Virus record (IMG/VR): IMGVR_UViG_3300032271_000686
Coordinates: 1 to 21,546 of that record
DNA from: a virus
Reading direction: 5' to 3' (one strand)
DNA length: 21,546 nucleotides
The position numbers and the translations under genes were made by a program. This document shows positions 5,462-18,354 of the stretch, piece after piece. A model generated the notes under the pieces. The model had not been told where the DNA came from. It was given only the letters and a program-made list of their open reading frames with translations, and ran no database searches. Every line of letters starts with the position of its first letter. Position 1 is the stretch's first letter.

Positions 5462-5496
5462 GGAAGGCCCCGCATCCCTCCGGTGTGGGGCCTTCC
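5462..5496 (+). terminator. Strong 13-bp hairpin, possible terminator or attenuator
   Basis: GGAAGGCCCCGCA (5462-5474) pairs with TGTGGGGCCTTCC (5484-5496), 13 bp with one G-U pair and a 9-base loop. It is the strongest hairpin noticed in the window. The sequence after it (GCATCCCCGGAGG) lacks the U tract of an intrinsic terminator, so partial termination, RNase protection or a processing site are all possible. It lies directly before the ribosome site of the glycosyltransferase gene, so it probably lowers that gene's expression relative to capsid. Confidence 0.5.
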
Positions 5497-5517
5497 GCAT
5501 CCCCGGAGGAAAATACA

Positions 5518-6378
5518 ATGCACCGTAAACACCAGATCGTCATTGGCTGGATTGATCCAGGCGTCGTTGATGGCATGTTTGCCCTGTCAATGATGGAAAT
5601 TTTCGCTAAGCGCGCACATTTGATTTCTAACATTTTGCGCATTGAAGCCGGCGGCTTGTTGTCGAGAGCGCGCAATGAGATCGCCGCAAACTTTATGGAC
5701 TCTGACGCTGACTGGCTGTTTATGATCGACAGCGACGAAGCGATTACGGTTGCCGATTTCGACAAGCTTGTTGAAACCGCGCATGACAAATTGCGCCCGT
5801 TTGTGGCTGGCGTTTATTACGGCGCAGCCAATGGGCCAGATATTTACCCCGAACCCGTCCCGCTGATTTTCCGCGACGCCGAGGGCAACAAATACTTTCC
5901 AATTACCGAATACCCCGAGAACGCCGTGATTCCGATTACGGCCGCTGGTACGGGTTGCATTTTGGTTCATCGTTCAGTGTTGGCAGCGATTCAAGAACGC
6001 GCCACCGAACATCAAGGCCCGCATTGGTGCTGGTTCCTTGACCTGCCCGTTGGGCAGCAATGGTTTGGCGAGGATATGTATTTTTGCCGCCAAGTTCACG
6101 ACCTCGGATTTCCAATGGTGGCCCATACCGGCGTGCAACTTTTGCATCGCAAACGCTATTGGCTTGGCCGCAAACATTTCGAACGTTTCCAATTTCTTAC
6201 GCGCGAAGATCGCAGCGTGTTAGCCCCAGCAGACAAGGACAACAACGTGAGCATTGAGTCTTTGCGCGAAGAACTGGCCGCCGCGATTGAAGCCGACGAC
6301 AAAATCAAGGTCAACGAGCTGCGCAATCAAATAACGCAATTGCACGACCTTGAGCATGAGACACGCGAGGCTAACTAA
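5518..6378 (+). CDS. GT-A fold glycosyltransferase (family 2-like)
   Basis: A 286-residue probable sugar transferase. The family signs are ARNEIAANFMDSDADWLFMI followed by the metal and nucleotide-sugar binding DSD at residues 71-73, a PFVAGVYYG strand, the TAAGTGCILVHRSVL acceptor-side segment, GEDMYFCRQVHDLG (E185/D186, catalytic base region) and a VAHTGVQLLH His-containing motif. No signal peptide or membrane helix is seen, so it acts in the cytoplasm. The last 45 residues are a predicted coiled coil. ATG 5518 follows GGAGGA (5505-5510); longer readings in the same frame run back into the capsid gene and are rejected. Sitting between capsid and connector genes, it may glycosylate a virion protein, but the target is unknown. 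The stop overlaps the next ATG (TAATG). Confidence 0.82.
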   Translation: MHRKHQIVIGWIDPGVVDGMFALSMMEIFAKRAHLISNILRIEAGGLLSRARNEIAANFMDSDADWLFMIDSDEAITVADFDKLVETAHDKLRPFVAGVYYGAANGPDIYPEPVPLIFRDAEGNKYFPITEYPENAVIPITAAGTGCILVHRSVLAAIQERATEHQGPHWCWFLDLPVGQQWFGEDMYFCRQVHDLGFPMVAHTGVQLLHRKRYWLGRKHFERFQFLTREDRSVLAPADKDNNVSIESLREELAAAIEADDKIKVNELRNQITQLHDLEHETREAN

Positions 6379-7265
6379 TGGCAGCGTATGAACTTGGCGA
6401 TCTAGTTCCGTTATCGGTTTCAGTTACCGATTCAACGGGCGTTGCCGCCAACGCAACCACTGTTGTGGTCACCATCGTGCAACCCGATGGCACAAGCGTT
6501 GGCCCATACACGCCCACTAACGCCACCACCGGCTCATACGTGTACACGTTCACGCCAACCCTTGTTGGTCATCACACGTACCGTTTCCAAGCCACTGGAA
6601 CCAATGCCAGCAATTATGCGGGCGCATTCAATGTTCTGCCATCAGTCGCCCCAATCGTCACCCTCGACGAGATCAAGGCGCACCTGTCGCTTGTCGGCTC
6701 ATACGACGATGCAGAACTTGCCGCGTTCCTCGCTACTGCCATTCCCGTAGTTGAGTCGATCGTTGGGCCAATTACGCCTCGCACGATCGTTGGCGAAGGT
6801 CACGCGGCTGGCTCAGTGCAAATCACGACCAATTACCGACCAATCATCAGTGTTGAGTCGATCACTGAAATGGTCGGCCAACAGCAGCGCACACTAACGT
6901 TGCAACCCGTTGGCTACGCCACCGACAATTACGGCTACTCAATTGACTCGTACACTCGCGGCCTGATTACTCGACGTGGCACTGGAAGCCTGGCGTACAA
7001 CTTCGGCATGATCGGCCACGGCTCGGGCCTTGGCGTCAACACGGTTCTAATTTCGTACACCGCTGGCCGAACTAACCCGCCCGAAAATGTGCGCTTCATG
7101 GTCAAAGAACTTGTCAAATACATGTGGCGCCAAGTCAAGGGCGGCCAAGCCTCGTTCCAAGATGGATCGTTTAGCCCAGCTGCAACTTCGGGCATTTCCG
7201 AAGCCATGATGGCGCGGCTACGTTTCTTGGCTGGCAATGAAACAACCGTGCCAGGTATTGCCTGA
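6378..7265 (+). CDS. Head-tail connector with N-terminal Ig-like domain
   Basis: A 295-residue fusion. Residues 1 to about 88 look like a bacterial Ig-like beta sandwich: alternating hydrophobic strands such as VPLSVSVTDSTG, TTVVVTIVQPDGT, the TGSYVYTFTP turn and GHHTYRFQATGT. From residue 95 (VTLDEIKAHLSLVGSYDDAE) begins a region matching the HK97 gp6-like connector or adaptor family, which usually opens with TLEEVKxxLRI and forms a ring under the portal. The C-terminal part continues with FMVKELVKYMWRQVKGG. Typical connectors of this type are around 100 to 200 residues, so the length excess is the added domain. Display of the Ig domain at the neck is inference. It is joined to neighbours by TAATG and TGATG overlaps. 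Confidence 0.75.
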   Translation: MAAYELGDLVPLSVSVTDSTGVAANATTVVVTIVQPDGTSVGPYTPTNATTGSYVYTFTPTLVGHHTYRFQATGTNASNYAGAFNVLPSVAPIVTLDEIKAHLSLVGSYDDAELAAFLATAIPVVESIVGPITPRTIVGEGHAAGSVQITTNYRPIISVESITEMVGQQQRTLTLQPVGYATDNYGYSIDSYTRGLITRRGTGSLAYNFGMIGHGSGLGVNTVLISYTAGRTNPPENVRFMVKELVKYMWRQVKGGQASFQDGSFSPAATSGISEAMMARLRFLAGNETTVPGIA

Positions 7266-7768
7266 TGGCGTACACAATCATTCCTGACGTGCGGGCCGCA
7301 CTTCAAGACACAATTCTTCCGGCCGCCTTGGCTAACCTTCCGGCCACAATCACCGTTGCCGGCAACACGGTTGCGTTGCGTAAACCGGAAATTCATTACG
7401 GAACGCCAGCCACCGGGCAGCCGCCGAACTCGCTAGTTGTCATCGGCCCCAGTGCTGGCGATGACCAACAGTTTGCAAACTTGCCCGACAACCAAACGCG
7501 CAGCCGTGAAGAACGTTTCTCGATCACCATGATGATTTGGTATCTGATTGGTGACACTTCGCCAGCCGCGCAACGAGTTGCGACCGAATCCTCATTTCAG
7601 ATTTACCGCACCATCCAAGGCTACTTGCGCACGGGCAACCCGTGGCAAGGAATCCTTTCCGCGCCTTACACGGTCAATCTCGAGCGCGTCAGCGATCGAG
7701 ATTTCAACGTGGCCGAAGGCCGCGGCTCAATGCTCGACTGCAACCTCTCAATTTTCACCAAGGTCTAA
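7265..7768 (+). CDS. Probable tail terminator protein
   Basis: A 167-residue protein with the pattern of siphovirus tail terminator or tail completion proteins. It has an N-terminal helix (DVRAALQDTILPAALANLP), a Y-G-x-P segment followed by NSLVVIGPSAGDDQQ, then REERFSITMMIWYLIGD, a helix ATESSFQIYRTIQGYLR and a final strand pair ending LDCNLSIFTKV. This order resembles actinobacterial phage proteins that cap the tail tube and stop its growth. Its position between connector and major tail protein fits. A head closure role cannot be excluded from sequence alone. It starts within the stop codon of the connector gene (TGATG). Confidence 0.6.
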   Translation: MAYTIIPDVRAALQDTILPAALANLPATITVAGNTVALRKPEIHYGTPATGQPPNSLVVIGPSAGDDQQFANLPDNQTRSREERFSITMMIWYLIGDTSPAAQRVATESSFQIYRTIQGYLRTGNPWQGILSAPYTVNLERVSDRDFNVAEGRGSMLDCNLSIFTKV

Positions 7769-7791
7769 GACCCCCGAAAGGAAAAGCCATC

Positions 7792-8043: not shown

Positions 8044-9345
8044 ATGGCTAATCTCGGAACTGGCTTAGACGCCTCCGTTGGTTTTGGAGTCGAGTCGTCC
8101 TGGAACACTCCAGCAACAATTAGTCGCTTCTTGCCCTTCGATAGCGACACGGTTTCGCGCAAAAAGACAACCGTGCAAGGCATGGGTTTGCGCTCAGGCA
8201 TCTTGTCACCATTCGCCGCCAACCGTCGTATCGCAACTCGCGAAGCAACGGGAAACATCACGATGGACGTTCAAAATCAAGGCATGGGTTTGCTGTTCAA
8301 CCACATGCTTGGCACTAACTCAATCAGCAATTCGGGCAGCGTTTACACTCAGGTTTTCACACTTGGATCACGTCGAGGCTTGTCTTTGACGGCGCAGATT
8401 GGTCGCCCTTCCGCAGATGGAACGGTTAACCCGTTCACCTACACCGGCGGCAAGATTGTCGATTACGAATTGTCATTGGCCACCAATCAGTTGTTCAAGT
8501 TGAACTTGGGCATGGATTTTGCCGACGAAATCACTTTGGCTAACACGCCTACGATTTCGGGTATCACCCAAACCGGCACCGCCGGAAGTACCACGTACTA
8601 CTACCGCGTGTCGGCGAACTTGGCCTCGGGCGAAACCTCGGCCGGTGCCGAATTCAAAACAGCGTTGAGCAACGCCACGTTGTCGTCAACCAATTACAAC
8701 GTAGTCACTTGGGCAGCTGTAACTGGCGCAACGTCGTACAACGTGTATCGATCAAGCACGGCCGGCGCTGAACTTAAAATTGCCAGCAACGTTTCCACCA
8801 CGAATTACAACGACCAGAGCAACACCGCCGGTGTTGGCTCACCTTTCGGCCCATTGCTCACCACGCCCACGTACACTGCCGTTTTATCGGCTGCTCCGTT
8901 CGCCTTTACTGGCGCAAACACCTTGACCCTCGGCGGTTCGGCCGTGGCTGCTGTCAAGAAGTTTTCAGTCAAGCCAACCAATCCAAGTAAGACCGATCGG
9001 TTCTACTTGGGATCGTCGGGCGTCAAGGCGGAACAAGTCGACAACGCTTACCGCACCGTAACTGGCACCCTCGAATGCGAGTTCACTAGCTTGTCGGCGT
9101 TGTATGCCGCTTACGCGGCAGACACTGGCCTTGCATTCCAGTTCAAGGTAATTGGCGATTACATTGCCAGCACCAGCACGCCCTATTCGGTGCAGATTGA
9201 CATGCCGAAGATTTTCTTGGACGGCGACACTCCGAACGTTACCGGCCCTGACATTCTCACCCAAACCGTTCCGTTTGTTGCCCTTTACGATGGCACCAAC
9301 TCGGCCCTAACTATCACCAACGTTACTTCGGATACGGCTCTGTAG
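8044..9345 (+). CDS. Major tail tube protein with inserted FN3-like domain
   Basis: A 433-residue tail tube protein. The N-terminal part (GLDASVGFGVESSWNTPATI, then SRKKTTVQGMGLRSG, ATGNITMDVQNQGMGLLFNH) is typical of siphovirus tube proteins of the 'VGxGxE.TWGTP' class. The C-terminal part (residues 270 to 433) continues with a phrase SVKPTNPSKTDRFYLGSSGV, a VTGTLECEFTSL strand and IDMPKIFLDGDTPNVTGPD, also usual for the family. Between them, residues 168-270 are an FN3-like beta sandwich that is likely displayed outside the tube. A relative of the same domain is found in the tail tip protein. GAAAGGAA at 8027-8034 gives the ribosome site. High expression is expected for the tube subunit. 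Confidence 0.88.
   Translation: MANLGTGLDASVGFGVESSWNTPATISRFLPFDSDTVSRKKTTVQGMGLRSGILSPFAANRRIATREATGNITMDVQNQGMGLLFNHMLGTNSISNSGSVYTQVFTLGSRRGLSLTAQIGRPSADGTVNPFTYTGGKIVDYELSLATNQLFKLNLGMDFADEITLANTPTISGITQTGTAGSTTYYYRVSANLASGETSAGAEFKTALSNATLSSTNYNVVTWAAVTGATSYNVYRSSTAGAELKIASNVSTTNYNDQSNTAGVGSPFGPLLTTPTYTAVLSAAPFAFTGANTLTLGGSAVAAVKKFSVKPTNPSKTDRFYLGSSGVKAEQVDNAYRTVTGTLECEFTSLSALYAAYAADTGLAFQFKVIGDYIASTSTPYSVQIDMPKIFLDGDTPNVTGPDILTQTVPFVALYDGTNSALTITNVTSDTAL
8545..8853 (+). repeat. FN3-like domain cassette, copy 1 (in major tail protein)
   Basis: Encodes residues 168-270 of the major tail protein. Key shared stretches are TTYYYRVSANL, GET-AG, YNVVTW-AVTGA-SYNVYR, GAELKIASN, YNDQS and SP-GPL. 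The same order of motifs is found at 17443-17745 in the tail tip gene. By eye more than half of the residues match while the nucleotides have drifted, so the copies are old or were acquired separately from related sources. Confidence 0.8.
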
Positions 9346-9347
9346 TC

Positions 9348-10007
9348 ATGCCCGCCAATTATGGCGAAGCAATCAAAATCGTTGGCTTGAAGGAATTAGA
9401 GGCAAAAGCTAAAGCCGCAGGAAAGAAGCTTGACCCAGAACTGAGGGCGGGTAATTACGCCGCCGCCCTCGAGGTCAAAACCAAGGCACAGCAGATTGCT
9501 TCAGGAGTTGACAAGCACGCGGCGACGGCCGCCGATGCAATCTATGTTTCAGCATCGGCGGCTTCAGCAAAATTGGTTTTGCAGCGCACGCCCGCAGTTC
9601 CGTTTGCACTGGGCGCGGAGTGGGGAGCAAAACACAATTTGCCGCGCACAGTCTTTAGCAAAGTAACCAAGATTCACGGCCCTTCAACGCAATACACGCG
9701 CAGGCAAAAAGATGGCAGTTACAAAACTTTTACCCGAAAGGGCAAAGCGGTTGCTGTCATCAAAGAAGGCGGCCGCACAATCAAAGGGTGGAACCAGTTT
9801 AAAGACTGGCGCGGAAATGCCACTTCGGCGGCCGTTGGCGACGAACTGGGCGCGTTGGGGTCAAGTCATGGCAGAACAGTTGACGATCTGCCCGCCGGTT
9901 ACTTCATGTGGCCCGCATTTAGGGAAATGATTCCGATCATTCGTGACCAAGAGCAAGCGCGCGTTCAAGAGTTACTTGAAAAAGAATTTGCGCGCCTTAA
10001 CGGCTAG
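9348..10007 (+). CDS. HK97 gp10-like neck or minor tail protein
   Basis: A 219-residue protein of the HK97 gp10-like type. The N-terminus has the family pattern GLKELEAKAKAAGKKLDPEL, followed by a helix AALEVKTKAQQIASG. A strand LVLQRTPAVPFALGAEWGAK corresponds to the usual 'PYAxxxEFG' segment, and GYFMWPAFREMIPIIRDQEQ near the end corresponds to the 'GYFLxPAL' helix. Such proteins join the head to the tail. Here the gene lies after the major tail protein, two bases from its stop, and before the tape measure gene, where tail assembly chaperone genes usually stand. A basic insert (residues about 115-145, TRRQKDGSYKTFTRKGKA) is rich in Lys and Arg. Confidence 0.65.
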   Translation: MPANYGEAIKIVGLKELEAKAKAAGKKLDPELRAGNYAAALEVKTKAQQIASGVDKHAATAADAIYVSASAASAKLVLQRTPAVPFALGAEWGAKHNLPRTVFSKVTKIHGPSTQYTRRQKDGSYKTFTRKGKAVAVIKEGGRTIKGWNQFKDWRGNATSAAVGDELGALGSSHGRTVDDLPAGYFMWPAFREMIPIIRDQEQARVQELLEKEFARLNG

Positions 10008-10018
10008 GGGAAGGCGAC

Positions 10019-12514
10019 ATGGCTACAGCCAAAGTTGAAATCATCGTTGTCGCCGATGCAGCCCAGGCCGAGGCGGTTCTTGGTCGACTAGGCACGACGG
10101 TGGGAACCACCGGCAAGGTCGCTGAGACTGAAGCCGTAAAGATGGAATCTTTCACTGAGAAACTGGTTGCCGCTGGCCCCGCTGGACAGACCGCCGCAAC
10201 GGGCGTTGAAGAAATCGCGGGCGCACTTACCAGCAAACTCGGTATTGCTTCGGGTGCAGCTTCGGGGCAAATCAATGCGTTAAACAAAATGCTTGGCGGC
10301 TTGTCTGGTGGCGCTTTAGGTGCCGCCGCTGGCGTGGCTGCATTTGCCGTTGCCGCAGGAATAGTTCTTGAAGTAATCAACAAAGCCGTTGAAGGTTTCA
10401 TTCACTACGCCGATGGCGTTCGTCGCATGGAAATTGCTACCGGACTAGGCGCGCGTGAAGCGGGTTTACTGGTAAATGAGTTTAAGCTTCTGGGCATTGG
10501 TGCTGATGAAGCCGCCGGACTTATGTTCAAATTCGACAAAAATTTGGGCACTGGAAAATTAGCAAAGTACGGAATTGAAATTCGGGACGCTTCCGGCTCC
10601 AATAAAGAATTCAATGTTGTGCTTGATGAACTTCTCAATCGGCTGGGTTCTTCAAGTTCGGCTGCTGAGCGAGCGGCTATTGCAACGGCTGCATTTGGTA
10701 AAGGGGCAATGACCTTAACGCCACTGCTGGCCATGAATTCTCAAGAATATGCAAAATTAAAGGAAGAAGCCGCTAACGGTTTCTTGCCAACCGAAAAAGA
10801 CATTGTTGCTGCGCATGAACTTGAAGTTTCAATGCGAGCACTTGGTATGCAAGTTGACAAGATCAAACTGCAATTCGGCGAACAATTGTTGCCCGTCGTT
10901 CAAGGTGCTCTTACCACGATTTCGACGGCAATTGATCACGTTTCGTTTGACAACATGCTTATCGGCATCACTAAGTTCTTGGATGTCGCAACGGCAGGCG
11001 TTCCAGTTTTTGAAACCATCGCCCGAGTACTTGGTTTCATTGGTCAAAACAATGCGGCAGCGGCAACACAAGCCGGCGAAAATGCTGCCGCGACAGAAGA
11101 TTTAGCGAAGGCATCTCAACAAGCCACGGACGCAATCACCGCCAACATTGATGCAGCCCAAGCACAGCTTGATCTTGAAAAGATGCAAGTTGACTGGGCC
11201 AAGAAGGTTGCCGACGCTGAAGCCAAAAAGGCAAAAGATATTGCCGATGCCAAGGCCGCGCAGACTAAAGCCAATACCGATTTAGTCAAAGCGGAGCAAG
11301 ATGGCGCAACGGCAATTGCCAAAGCAAATGCCGACGTTGCCGACAAAATCATTAGCGGTCAAGAAAAGATTGCGGCGGCTCGCAAGCATCAAGCCGATAC
11401 TGCCCAATCAGATTCTGAAGCCGTCATTTCTGCTTCTGAAGCGGTCACCTCGGCAACGCAACGCCAGGCCGACAATGCTCAGCGCGACTCTGACGCTATC
11501 GTTTCGGCGCAAAACCGAATTCTTGACATTCAGCAAAGAATTCGTCAAGACAAAGAACAAGACGTTCAATCGGCGCGTAGCGTTGCTGACGCTGAAAAGA
11601 ATTTGCAACGTGTTCGAGAAGATATTGGCGCTGGACGAATTGGCGGCGATGCGGCCAGCCGCGCCTTTCAAGACGCGCAGGAAAGACTGCAACGCGCGCA
11701 ACAGGATTCGCAAACGTCAGCGCAAAATCGTGCCGACCGAATGGCTCAAGATGAACGCGAACTTGCGCAAGCCGAAAAAACGTTGGCAGAAGCGCGGCAC
11801 GCTCGGGATCAGGATCGAGTAAATGATGCGCACGCAGTTGACGACGCTAGGCGCAAATTAGCGGAAGCAGAGAAGAAACGGGCCGAAGACACGGTTTCTG
11901 AAGCCGCCGCCGTTGCTAAAGCAGAAAAGGAATCAGCGGCAGCAATTACGGCAGCTCGGGCTGCTGTAACGGCGGCTGAGCAAAATGCTGCGGCCAAAAT
12001 CGCGGCGGCTCGCTCCTCCGTGACGACGGCAACTAAAAATTTGCATGATGCCGAACATGAGGCCGGCATTAGCGCGTTTGATTTGCGTCAACATGAACTT
12101 GATTTGGAAAAGGCGCATTTGCGCGTTGAAACGTCTACCAATAAAGCGTCTGAAGCTTTTGGAACCTTTCAATCAAACATGGGTGAGGCGCACAAAAAAG
12201 CCGTTTTATTGGGCGGCGTATTAGACAGTATGAACGCTACAACCATGCCGCAATTCATGCGTCGATTGAGTGAAGCGGGCTTATTGCCCGATCAAATTAT
12301 TGGCGTTAATTCGCATTTGCCGATCAATCCCGACAGTGACCAAAGCATGAATTTGGCAGCTCATCAAAACGTGCATGTTCATATCAACGCGGGCGGCCTG
12401 GTTATGGACCCCGCTTCAGCCGACCATGTTGGCCGAACTGTCGCCAACGGTGTCATCCAAGAAATTCAACGCAGAACAAACAACGGCGAAACAATTCCAC
12501 GCCGACGACCATAA
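10019..12514 (+). CDS. Tail tape measure protein
   Basis: An 831-residue tape measure protein, which sets tail length and is ejected ahead of DNA at infection. Residues 65-125 hold a Gly/Ala-rich hydrophobic region (LGGLSGGALGAAAGVAAFAV) that could span a membrane. Residues about 130-290 resemble the family's N-terminal phrase (YADGVRRMEIATGLGAREAG, TAAFGKGAMTLTPLL). Residues about 355-715 are an Ala/Lys/Glu/Gln-rich coiled coil with a degenerate repeat: ADTAQSDSEAVISA and ADNAQRDSDAIVSA, at about 11392-11431 and 11469-11508. At the usual 0.15 nm per residue the tail would be close to 125 nm. No peptidase or lysozyme domain is visible. The start ATG 10019 follows AGGGGAAGG at 10007-10015. Confidence 0.85.
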   Translation: MATAKVEIIVVADAAQAEAVLGRLGTTVGTTGKVAETEAVKMESFTEKLVAAGPAGQTAATGVEEIAGALTSKLGIASGAASGQINALNKMLGGLSGGALGAAAGVAAFAVAAGIVLEVINKAVEGFIHYADGVRRMEIATGLGAREAGLLVNEFKLLGIGADEAAGLMFKFDKNLGTGKLAKYGIEIRDASGSNKEFNVVLDELLNRLGSSSSAAERAAIATAAFGKGAMTLTPLLAMNSQEYAKLKEEAANGFLPTEKDIVAAHELEVSMRALGMQVDKIKLQFGEQLLPVVQGALTTISTAIDHVSFDNMLIGITKFLDVATAGVPVFETIARVLGFIGQNNAAAATQAGENAAATEDLAKASQQATDAITANIDAAQAQLDLEKMQVDWAKKVADAEAKKAKDIADAKAAQTKANTDLVKAEQDGATAIAKANADVADKIISGQEKIAAARKHQADTAQSDSEAVISASEAVTSATQRQADNAQRDSDAIVSAQNRILDIQQRIRQDKEQDVQSARSVADAEKNLQRVREDIGAGRIGGDAASRAFQDAQERLQRAQQDSQTSAQNRADRMAQDERELAQAEKTLAEARHARDQDRVNDAHAVDDARRKLAEAEKKRAEDTVSEAAAVAKAEKESAAAITAARAAVTAAEQNAAAKIAAARSSVTTATKNLHDAEHEAGISAFDLRQHELDLEKAHLRVETSTNKASEAFGTFQSNMGEAHKKAVLLGGVLDSMNATTMPQFMRRLSEAGLLPDQIIGVNSHLPINPDSDQSMNLAAHQNVHVHINAGGLVMDPASADHVGRTVANGVIQEIQRRTNNGETIPRRRP

Positions 12515-13006: not shown

Positions 13007-14135
<1,129 letters not shown>

Positions 14136-14136
<1 letters not shown>

Positions 14137-15515
14137 TGGCTACCTACACTTGTGCGTTAGTTGTCAGTAGTGGCGTCATGCTCACTAAATACACGGAAAA
14201 TTCTTCAAATGTCACGTATCTGACTCAGGCGGGCACCGCTGGCTCAGGTGCTGCAACTGTTAACGCTTTTCAAGTACCGTCATCCTCCCCAGTTGTCCAA
14301 ATGACTCATTTGCCCGACCGAGGAAACAAAAATTACGAATCGTGGAACGCTAGACAAGTCGGGCAAACTTTTGACACGTCGGCGATTCCAACTGGAGAGA
14401 CAGTTAGTGCCGTCACATATACCGCACTAATTCAAAACACCACCTTTGGTACTCCGTGGTCGTTGAAAGCGTATTCGGGTAGTTACAACACAACCGCGAA
14501 TTTGGCCGACTATCGTTCGCCCGCGCAATTGACCACATTGCTGTTCACTTTCAGCACGCCCAACTCAAACGGAACTCCGGCGGCGCAAACTGCCACCGGA
14601 ACAACTGCCGCAAACACTGCAATCAATAAAGGTGGTACAACCCAACTCATCGTGGTCGATGGAAACTACCCATCGGGCACGTTTCCTGCCATCGGGTCAA
14701 ATAGTCAAACCATCATTACTGCCACGGCTGTTCAGTCTTACCTAACGGTCACAACAGGATCAGGCGGCACCACTCAGACCGCTACCGTTACCGACGTCAC
14801 TAATTCGCCGATCGTCGCCGCAGACACGTCAGTAACTCGACCAGCGACAACCACGGGCATTACCACCTCGCCAACCGTCGCCGCTGCGGCTGCTGCGATT
14901 CAATCCGCTAACGCCTCAACGACGATCAGCTCAACGCCCGCCGCCTCGGCGACCGTGGTGCGGGCCGTTGACGCCGCAGTTACTACTAGCCCGACCTCGA
15001 CGGCCAGCGGAACGGCAACACAATCCGCTACAGCATCAGTTACGACATCGCCGACACCGACCGCCACAGCCACACAGAGCGCCTCAGCCAAGAGCGCCGA
15101 CGCTGCCCTAACAACTAGCCCAACCACGGCTGCAACTGGCGTGCGCATCGTTACGGCCAGTGCGACCAATGTGACCGTTTCGCCAACAACCTCGGCCGCA
15201 GCGGTTCGAGTAGTCCTAGCCGATTCGTCCACAACGACCACGCCAAGCACCAGCGGGCAAAGCGCCGCAACGCACAACGCCATCGCGGCCTATGCGGTAA
15301 CTCCGTTGACCGCCGCAGCCGTGACGGTTACGCGCACAGTTACAGCCACGGGCGTGACGGTTGCGACAGTAACGGCGGCTGTTGCCGCAATCGCCGATCG
15401 GCGCGGCTCAATGGCCGTAAGTAACGCATCAAATTCCAGCATGACTAATGCAAATAAATCGAGTGCCAACATGTCGGCTGCAAATGGGGCAACAGCAACA
15501 ATGACAGGGGCTTAA
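14136..15515 (+). CDS. Thr/Ala/Ser-rich repetitive tail fibre-like protein
   Basis: A 459-residue protein with three parts. Residues 1 to about 205 look like a beta jelly roll; the phrase VGQTFDTSAIPTGETVSAVT resembles DNRLRE-type carbohydrate or surface modules. Residues about 213-418 are a degenerate repeat of roughly 20 to 24 residues centred on T-T-S-P-T (GITTSPTVAAA, AVTTSPTSTA, SVTTSPTPTA, ALTTSPTTAA, NVTVSPTTSA), with almost no charged or aromatic residues. The last about 35 residues change to Asn/Ser/Met (SNASNSSMTNANKSSANMSA). It probably forms an extended, trimeric or stalk-like surface fibre. Repeats with many Thr and Ser could be sugar-bearing, and a glycosyltransferase is encoded upstream. 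The start is at a TAATG junction. Confidence 0.65.
14778..15390 (+). repeat. Degenerate TTSPT coding repeat
   Basis: About eight or nine imperfect units of roughly 60 to 72 bases, each with a T-T-S-P-T-like core followed by Ala/Thr/Val. Units differ at many third positions, so the array is not a recent expansion. The strong A/T/S/V bias makes long open frames appear on the complementary strand as well; those are not genes. Confidence 0.6.
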
Positions 15516-15516
15516 C

Positions 15517-18354
15517 GTGGCGGTCCAAAGTACGTACACAGTTGACACGCAAATACTGAACAACACATACGCGCAAGCAGAAGTTCAATCGAACGTTAAT
15601 ACTCCGATTAGTTTTTCTGTTCAAGCTGCATGGAATGATGGCCCCGACGCGGCAAGCCCGACCTGGTATGAGATTGCTTCAGTCGAAAGAATCGAAACTG
15701 GGCCTCGCGGTCGGACGTATGAGTTAGACACCATAGTTCCCACTCGGAGCAAAATTCGTATCGACAATACTTCAAATTCTTACGGCCCCAAACAGCGCAC
15801 CAATTTGATGCCTTACGCAACATTTTGGTCAACAAGTGCAACGAGTTATTGGGCGCCCGTTTCGGGGACTTTAACTCGCACGTCAGCGACAATGGCCAAC
15901 GGAAACAGCGGCTATGTGGGTCGCTATGTCGCATCTGCTGGCGGTTCCGGCATCAGAATTCCTTACACTCCACGAAATCTATCTTTATCTGTTTCGCAAA
16001 ACACTACATACACAGTTCAGACGAAAATTCGTCAACAAACAGCCGGAACGTATGGCTGGAATGTGTATCTGGAAATGTACGATTCCAGCGGAACGTCAAC
16101 GGGAGGTTTTTACTCACCAACATATGTGACATCCGTTAACGGATCATGGGTAACGCTTTCACAGACATTCCTTACCTCGCCAAATACGGCCAAGCTCTAT
16201 ATCGAATTCAACCCGACCGCAGCGTTGCCTTCGGGTGCAACTTTTGATTTTGATCAAATCATGGTTGAAGCATCCTCAACCGCAGGAACATTTTTTGACG
16301 GCAGTTCGGCTAACTGTGCATGGAATGGAACGCAATATGCTTCGGCGTCGGTGAGTTTAAGCACCGCAACCACCGACAAGCAGATTAGAGCGATTGCCAC
16401 GTTTAACGGCACTCCCTATCGAATTCTTACGGGCAACATTGAATCAATTCCGGCAACTCTTGATTCTGGACAATTTGATTATGCTTCAAGCACGTATGGC
16501 GTCATTGATCGACAAGACCAATTGCTCACCACGTCGTTACGAGCTGCATACATTGAATGGACGATGCATCAAAGCCCGACAGTGTTCGTCCCATTCAGCG
16601 AACCGGCAGCGACGAGCGGCGTTCGTAATCAAGTAACGGGCGAAATTTTCCCGTTTGTCGCCAAACCGTCAAGCGGCTCAGGAATTACCGCTTTTACGTT
16701 GGCTAACTTGGGCGATAGCCCAATGTTTCCGGTGACCAATCCGGCAACGTGCTGCAATTTCGTGCCATACATTGATTCGACCAGTTCAACTTATGATGCT
16801 GGAACGGCCGTCGTGTTGGCTACGGGTGGAACTGGCACATTTGTTAGAGGGTCTCAATATGCGATTCGATTTACGTTTCGCACGTTAGCCAACAGCGGAT
16901 ACTTCTTCTCCCAAGGCGACAATTACCAAATCAACATCGGCCTGAGTGGCGGCCATTTGGTCGCAAATTTTCCAACGACTAGCGGTCAAACTAATCTTGA
17001 TGCCAACACAACAATTATTGGCGGCCAGCCATACGAGAAACAGCCCTATTTCAATGACGGATTTCCGCACGTTGTAGAGCTGAGAATATCAACTTCAAGG
17101 CAATCGCTATATGTCGATGGAGTTGAAACCGCTTTTTCAACTTTTACGCCTAGCACAATCTCGCCAGGCGCTTCTAATGGTCATGCCAGCGATCACGCAT
17201 ATATTGGTTACGAAGACCCAAGCCGAACTCCCTACTGGGGGCCATTCAGCGGCAGCATTTCAGATTTTGCCATTTTTGATAGCTCATACATCACCACATA
17301 CAGCGCAGCAAACAGTTCTGCCCTGACATTGGTGGCGGCAAACGGTTTTGCCACTGACACAATCAAAACACGAATTGGTCGAATTCTTGACTGGATTGAC
17401 CCAAACATTCCGCGCGCCACTGGAACAATGACATGCGCCGCAACGCCCACCATTACCAATTCGGGAATTGCGGAAACCACCACCTACTACTATCGAATTT
17501 CAGCGAACCTGCCCAATGGCGAAACATGCGCCGGTGATGAAGGAGTCATTACTACAGGCGCGGCCATTTTATCCAGTTCTCGCTACAACGTCGTCACATG
17601 GCCAGCCGTAACAGGAGCGGTTTCATACAACGTTTATCGTTCAACGGTAAGCGGCGCAGAATTGAAAATTGCTAGCAATTTGACTTCGCGCACGTATAAC
17701 GACCAATCATCGGCGACGGGTTCAAGTTCGCCCTTAGGCCCGCTCACCGGGCCTTTGGTGTGCGCAGGGGTAAATGCGTGGCAAGCATGTTCTGACGCAA
17801 TGCTCGGTGATGGCGGTCTGCTTTACATTGATGCGTTCAACTCAGTAACGACAATGGCGGCATCTGACCGTTTAGCGTCACCAAGTGCTTTAACGTTGGG
17901 CACAACGTTGTGGCCGATCGCTTCAACAAATTTGACGTTCGAAGTTGATCGACAACATTTAGTGAACGAGATTGTTGCTACGTATCCAGGCGGCCCGTCA
18001 AATACGTACAAGGATTCGGTTAGCCAATCTCGTTATCGTCGCCGCACTTCGGCTTCAACCATCACATTTCCGGTTGCAAGTGATACTGCTTTAAGCGTTG
18101 CGGCTAACAACTATTTGGCCCGTTACGCTTACCCGCGCGCACGTATCGGTTCTATCACTTTGGACGTATTCACCAATCCTTCGTTGATTCCTTACGTGAT
18201 GAATTTTGATCCCGGCGAAAAGGTGACCATTACTAATCTGCCAGCCACCGCGCCCGCGACAACAATGGATTTCCACATTGAAGGCGTGACACATCAGATC
18301 ACTGCAACGTCGTGGCAAACGATTTTGCAACTTAGCCCCTACATCCCAAATTAA
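15517..18354 (+). CDS. Large multidomain minor tail (tip) protein
   Basis: A 945-residue tail tip protein. Residues 1-95 (VERIETGPRGRTYELDTIVP) resemble the N-terminal base domain of actinobacterial phage minor tail proteins. Residues about 97-265 look like a CBM-type jelly roll (LYIEFNPTAALPSGATFDFD, then FFDGSSANCAWNGTQYAS). Residues about 400-595 resemble a LamG or concanavalin fold (VVELRISTSRQSLYVDGVET, AYIGYEDPS, SGSISDFAIFDSSY). Residues 643-743 are an FN3-like domain related to that in the tail tube protein. Residues about 805-945 (HLVNEIVATYPGG and FDPGEKVTITNLPA) are the usual C-terminal base part. Two sugar-binding-like folds point to host recognition. The start is GTG 15517 with AGGGGC just upstream; stop at 18352. 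Confidence 0.8.
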   Translation: MAVQSTYTVDTQILNNTYAQAEVQSNVNTPISFSVQAAWNDGPDAASPTWYEIASVERIETGPRGRTYELDTIVPTRSKIRIDNTSNSYGPKQRTNLMPYATFWSTSATSYWAPVSGTLTRTSATMANGNSGYVGRYVASAGGSGIRIPYTPRNLSLSVSQNTTYTVQTKIRQQTAGTYGWNVYLEMYDSSGTSTGGFYSPTYVTSVNGSWVTLSQTFLTSPNTAKLYIEFNPTAALPSGATFDFDQIMVEASSTAGTFFDGSSANCAWNGTQYASASVSLSTATTDKQIRAIATFNGTPYRILTGNIESIPATLDSGQFDYASSTYGVIDRQDQLLTTSLRAAYIEWTMHQSPTVFVPFSEPAATSGVRNQVTGEIFPFVAKPSSGSGITAFTLANLGDSPMFPVTNPATCCNFVPYIDSTSSTYDAGTAVVLATGGTGTFVRGSQYAIRFTFRTLANSGYFFSQGDNYQINIGLSGGHLVANFPTTSGQTNLDANTTIIGGQPYEKQPYFNDGFPHVVELRISTSRQSLYVDGVETAFSTFTPSTISPGASNGHASDHAYIGYEDPSRTPYWGPFSGSISDFAIFDSSYITTYSAANSSALTLVAANGFATDTIKTRIGRILDWIDPNIPRATGTMTCAATPTITNSGIAETTTYYYRISANLPNGETCAGDEGVITTGAAILSSSRYNVVTWPAVTGAVSYNVYRSTVSGAELKIASNLTSRTYNDQSSATGSSSPLGPLTGPLVCAGVNAWQACSDAMLGDGGLLYIDAFNSVTTMAASDRLASPSALTLGTTLWPIASTNLTFEVDRQHLVNEIVATYPGGPSNTYKDSVSQSRYRRRTSASTITFPVASDTALSVAANNYLARYAYPRARIGSITLDVFTNPSLIPYVMNFDPGEKVTITNLPATAPATTMDFHIEGVTHQITATSWQTILQLSPYIPN
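17443..17745 (+). repeat. FN3-like domain cassette, copy 2 (in tail tip protein)
   Basis: Encodes residues 643-743 of the 945-residue tail tip protein. It shares TTYYYRISANL, GET-AG, YNVVTW-AVTGA-SYNVYR, GAELKIASN, YNDQS and SP-GPL with the domain at 8545-8853. A Cys in MTCAATPT just before it and one in NGETCAGDEG distinguish this copy. Confidence 0.8.

Follow-up and report, generated by a model that had tools for sequence, protein, structure and literature searches.

The 21,546-base virus record IMGVR_UViG_3300032271_000686, referred to in full as the window, encodes two related FN3-like domains, one inserted into the major tail (tube) protein (MTP) and one in a putative tail tip protein. 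Our preferred reading, to which we assign a probability of roughly 0.55, is that a promiscuous FN3-like module is present twice in one virion as the outcome of an old copying event within the phage lineage, and that both copies would face outward for weak binding of the host surface.

The tail gene run and the tube protein

The window carries a head-tail gene run in the order terminase, portal, protease, HK97-type capsid protein, neck genes, MTP, tape measure, minor tail/fibre genes and putative tip protein. The features under study are collected in Table 1.

Table 1. Features of the tail gene region, with positions in the window.
Feature	Position	Strand	Basis
Major tail (tube) protein, MTP, 433 aa, phiC31 gp39 / PF18906 family, with inserted FN3-like domain	8044..9345	+	PF18906, phrog_290, phiC31/Streptomyces phage MTP homology, P74-26 fold match
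First tube beta-sandwich, MTP aa 1-160	8044..8523	+	model strands and one helix; homology to domain-less MTPs
Inserted FN3-like domain, MTP aa 163-275 (core aa 168-270 = 8545-8853)	8530..8868	+	absent from 36 full-length homologues; predicted seven-strand sandwich, pLDDT 86
Diverged patch, MTP aa 221-268 (versus L003/L004)	8704..8847	+	22/48 codons changed versus 72/433 in the whole gene, permutation p <0.001
Second tube beta-sandwich, MTP aa 283-433	8890..9342	+	model and fold match
Tape measure gene	10019-12514		
Putative tail tip / minor tail protein, 945 aa	15517..18354	+	LamG, CBM_4_9, phrog_5313 matches
Weak CBM_4_9 match, tip aa 109-232			
LamG, tip aa 454-585			
Second FN3-like domain copy, tip aa 638-747 (core aa 643-743)	17428..17757	+	alignment to MTP copy; family HMM E 5e-25
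phrog_5313 C-terminus, tip aa 756-941			

Further genes of the run were recorded in passing. A glycosyltransferase-like gene (phrog_34859, E 8e-29) lies at about 5480-6378, between the capsid and neck genes, and is also found in the phage contigs L004 and L075. Between the MTP and tape measure genes there is a phrog_5 (tail completion / Neck1-like) gene at 9348-10007, with a gene at the same place in L075 (6814-7455); this interval of the window contained no recognisable G/GT-type pair of tail chaperones. A DUF4915 / TIGR03032-like protein, conserved in L004, is encoded at 13007-13870. Directly ahead of the tip gene, positions 14136-15515 encode a 459-aa Thr/Ser/Ala-rich protein with degenerate repeats of the type TTSPT..ATATVVRAV.., whose L004 counterpart measures 416 aa and differs at the N-terminus.

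The MTP matches PF18906 (Phage_tube_2) over both of its halves (E 6.3e-18; protein 7-413, profile 1-266 of 266) as well as phrog_290 (E 4.5e-26). The predicted tube part matches the tail tube proteins of P74-26 (8ed0; Z 24.7, 318 residues), SH-Ab15497 (Z 23.8) and T5 (9iny; Z 20.0). By homology and predicted structure, the MTP is thus a tail tube protein of the phiC31 gp39 type with the two-sandwich fold of P74-26 and T5 pb6. In that class, two tube sandwiches joined by a linker are present in each chain, and trimers form pseudo-hexameric rings (PMC10034513, PMC8718954).

When the phiC31 and Sebastisaurus MTPs were aligned to the window MTP, both flanks proved to be conserved while the domain was missing. 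The same holds for phiC31 gp39 and the Streptomyces phage MTPs (PF18906, phrog_290), which belong to the same tube family on either side of the insertion and are without the domain of about 100 aa. In an MTP-alignment scan, none of 36 full-length homologues (325-342 aa, some of them near-identical) carried the domain, the gap corresponding to window residues 162-272. Among these MTP relatives, those bearing the domain were restricted to the window, L003, L004 (MTPs 97% identical) and L075, the last of which is 63% identical to the window MTP over the whole protein and 66% in the domain. In the full MTP model, strands run to residue 163 and resume from residue 293, which places the insertion between the two halves; the inserted region itself has a pLDDT below 50 in that model. 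Compared with its domain-less relatives, the MTP is therefore interrupted by an insertion at the linker that joins its two tube sandwiches. Gain by insertion in this lineage is a simpler reading than loss in all the others. The insert shares with phage decoration domains its location on a virion structural protein and its dispensability in relatives, and domain shuffling, which had been proposed from the sequence alone, gains support both from this clean insertion and from the occurrence of the family in many unrelated phage proteins.

The two copies in the window are close kin

MTP residues 163-275 and residues 638-746 of the putative tip protein share about 62% identity over 109 columns. The sequence-only reading had pointed to this likeness, and its details held: the domains are located at MTP residues 168-270 and at tip residues 643-743 within the tip open reading frame, and the strings YNVVTW, SYNVYR, GAELKIASN and YNDQS are found in both copies in the same order, although these strings are partly family consensus. 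It had further described the two copies as diverged in their DNA. Indeed, the nucleotide sequences are 61% identical overall, and their matches are confined to two blocks of 76% identity (97 and 58 nt). The repeat was absent among the 20 families listed by a general repeat finder, and with the MTP domain as query against the whole record exactly two places were matched, in the MTP and in the tip protein. That the two host proteins are unrelated was likewise upheld. The name 'tail tip' for the second, in contrast, is provisional and draws on gene order, the LamG and CBM-like domains, and weak matches to phrog_5313 and minor tail proteins. Among the other phage contigs scanned there were no tip orthologues over the FN3-like region, and a match in L004 was limited to the first ~150 residues.

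Conceivably, the shared strings could reflect chance or convergence on an FN3 consensus. Of the 56 core residues that are identical in the two copies, 34 are common in the domain family, so that family consensus accounts for much of the resemblance; the remaining 22 are not common. Chance was ruled out by shuffling, since the local alignment scored 328 while the best of 500 same-residue shuffles reached 91. In addition, the copies share 7 residues that are rare (<5%) in the family, whereas 1,485 other pairs share 0.09 such residues on average and 6 at most. The probability left to chance or convergence is therefore negligible. Consensus explains the likeness in part, but the copies in MTP and tip are truly close kin, as their shared rare residues exceed those of all background pairs.

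An old copying event is favoured over separate acquisition

The closest sequences to the tip copy by identity are the MTP copies (63%), followed by L075 (55%) and then by others at no more than 46%. Among the ~60 copies sampled, none outside the MTP orthologues was closer to either copy than the two are to each other. Accordingly, when the copies are ranked by identity they are nearest neighbours, MTP orthologues apart. The trees favoured a joint clade of MTP and tip but were less uniform, and they are compatible both with copying inside the genome and with separate capture from a related pool. In a 61-row tree the MTP, L004, L075 and tip copies formed one group (94/91, below the tool's star level), in which placing the tip inside or outside the MTPs, that is, the order of tip and L075, made little difference (AU p 0.32). 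In a 12-row tree the grouping of MTP and tip was lost, and the tip copy fell weakly with L007/L012. Exclusive rare residues numbered 6 for the pair MTP and L075 and 3 for the pair MTP and tip.

The synonymous divergence of the two copies is near saturation. At positions where the window MTP and the tip have the same residue, 32 of 68 codons are identical, where codon usage predicts 24.0 (z 2.1); by the same measure, MTP and L075 are at expectation (z 0.0) and MTP and L003 far above it (z 9.8). Since the synonymous codons are near saturation, the copies split long ago, and it is not conversion that keeps them alike.

Three origins have to be weighed against these data. From the sequence relationships we infer that an old copying event in this phage lineage gave rise to the tip and MTP copies from a single ancestor, and with modest confidence we favour this over separate capture. 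The competing idea, that both copies were acquired separately from a pool of related modules shared among phages of the same hosts, without any copying in this genome, is possible but somewhat less probable. It would be in keeping with the wide distribution of the family and its insertion in many unrelated proteins, with tree support for MTP plus tip that is not decisive, and with the presence in the unrelated phage L005 of a copy 54% identical to that of the MTP. Yet, leaving aside MTP orthologues, none of the ~60 copies comes closer to either member of the pair, and the 7 shared rare residues surpass the background maximum. Exchange within one genome, which the sequence-only reading had also raised, thus stays plausible in its old form. 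As a recent or ongoing process of gene conversion that maintains the likeness, it is highly improbable and was rejected: the excess of identical codons is slight and barely above saturation, and DNA identity is low even in the best blocks. The diverged patch described below is altered at synonymous and nonsynonymous sites, as allele replacement would have it, but in residues 218-249 the tip copy is equally far from the window MTP (25/96 differences) and from the L003 MTP (24/96).

Part of the MTP module was likely replaced

The module is the least conserved part of the MTP gene between close relatives: the window and L003 MTPs differ at 12 residues, of which 8 fall within residues 221-268 (Table 1). 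Between these two, changes are over-represented in the patch at synonymous positions (odds ratio 3.9, p 4e-4) and also at nonsynonymous ones (odds ratio 19, p 5e-6). L003 and L004 have the same domain sequence while differing at 22 sites over the gene. Taken as a pattern of substitutions, the patch is likely a part of the module that was replaced by a diverged allele from an unseen donor. The tip copy was not this donor, because the window and L003 MTPs are equally distant from it.

The domain family in other phages

Iterated profile searches of phage contigs returned 64 hits to the domain family, which were distributed over unrelated proteins and nearly all internal. Its hosts include Arthrobacter Korravirus MTPs, a tail-sheath-like protein of L009 and many proteins of ~950 aa; when the domain model was compared with BFVD, it matched a major tail protein, stabilization proteins, a connector and a capsid protein. 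In the Korravirus MTP gp11 (BigMack, HunterDalle) the domain belongs to the same FN3-like family and is 36-38% identical to the tip copy, whereas outside the domain gp11 and the window MTP had no tblastn match. In bacterial genomes the closest copies were distant, with at most 52% identity over short pieces.

Two other contigs deserve mention. L009 has two copies of the family in two structural proteins (7164-7781 and 9689-11503), which pair together in the 61-row tree (99/87); one of the host proteins reads, by its sequence, as a tail sheath with the FN3-like domain near its N-terminus. In L005, the copy is located in a beta-helix-like protein (8609-11713) and includes YNVVTWAAVTGA.

The module reads as a strand-rearranged FN3/Ig-like sandwich

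Modelled by AlphaFold2 from a 32-row alignment, the module consists of seven strands (pLDDT 86). The family profile matches the Fn3-like domain 3mpc (E 2e-10), and in combination with the structural match this marks the module as a beta-sandwich of the Ig/FN3 type. Membership of the canonical FN3 family (PF00041) was not borne out by Pfam, which gave no match to it and just sub-threshold matches to GH85_C and similar Ig folds.

The HMMER alignment ran in swapped order: profile columns 45-95 were placed on 3mpc residues 15-66 and columns 10-35 on residues 63-88. This order was repeated for 5g56 (the same module as 3mpc), 1k85 and 7jgu, and on this alignment the module would depart from the canonical strand order A-B-C-C'-E-F-G. 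Taken alone, the match of columns 10-35 to 3mpc is weak, with an i-Evalue of 1.6 against the whole PDB. When the model was aligned structurally with 3mpc, chain residues 3-65 were covered (62 residues, rmsd 2.2 A, Z 5.3) and the F-G part was left out, as a sequential aligner must do if the hairpin comes earlier in the module. We thus read the predicted module as a sandwich of the FN3/Ig type in which the F-G hairpin precedes B-C-C'-E. This could be a simple circular permutation, but an A-FG-BCC'E order fits the profile and the 3mpc alignment as well, because that alignment starts in strand A, at residue 3, from the first residues of the module model. The literature searched contained no mention of a phage FN3 with circular permutation.

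Sequential matches from end to end were obtained with two solved phage domains, at modest Z values: the SPO1 capsid chain (PDB 9vel; Z 8.3, 99 residues) and IG1 of the phicrAss001 muzzle (PMC10172136; residues 161-296, Z 6.1, 107 residues). Both are 13-18% identical to the module in sequence and are located in different host proteins.

A probable role in attachment

Ig-like and FN3 domains on structural proteins of tailed phages were reportedly described by Fraser et al. in 2006. These domains have been reviewed (PMC9022992, PMC8718954), and on siphophage tubes they stand out from the outer surface, can often be dispensed with and have been proposed as weak binders of carbohydrates on the host surface. 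The module of the window resembles them in being carried on tube and fibre/baseplate proteins, in moving between unrelated proteins and in its proposed weak surface binding. In contrast to the known tube modules of lambda, T5 and SPP1, which are mostly C-terminal, it lies in the inter-sandwich linker and is accompanied by a sister copy in this phage's putative tip protein. The tube proteins of P74-26 and T5 likewise have two beta-sandwich halves per chain, but P74-26 has a plain linker and T5 a C-terminal Big_2 domain where the window MTP has an FN3-like domain in the linker. The window is therefore a fresh case of a known phage habit, in which the place of insertion and the use of one module in both tube and tip would be modest novelties.

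An adhesin function, as the sequence-only reading had assumed, can be inferred from this literature. Located in the MTP linker, the module would be displayed once per tube subunit on the outside of the tail, and the tip copy, among LamG and CBM-like domains, would place the same module near the adsorption end. Projecting outward along the tail and close to its tip, the modules could repeatedly and weakly bind (glycan) structures on the host surface, and would thereby help adsorption rather than tube building. By analogy with known phage domains, multivalent weak attachment is the most likely role. Its main rival is a mechanical role, in which the inserted domain would brace the tail tube instead of binding and would be reused in the tip for the same reason. 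In the MTP of YSD1, an inserted beta-sandwich (domain 2) packs on the neighbouring subunit (PMC8718954), and the module is internal here as well, not C-terminal. We nevertheless consider a brace unlikely, since homologues form the tube protein without the domain, and since the module is the least conserved part of its gene, unlike a packing interface.

Going beyond the attachment role itself, it is a rather doubtful idea that this lineage made the linker between the tube sandwiches a slot for a strand-rearranged FN3 module, which spread to the tip; the phage might then have one binding specificity along the tail and at the adsorption end, diversifying by allele replacement.

The findings point to a strand-rearranged FN3-like module that structural proteins of phages commonly take up as a plug-in unit and that is missed by the Pfam FN3 model. 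MTPs with and without the module form a clean pair, in which the decoration is removable and the tube untouched, and the window adds a sister copy in the same genome near the putative tip. Because of this pair and the sister copy, the weak multivalent aid to adsorption that has been proposed for Ig-like tail domains would be directly testable.
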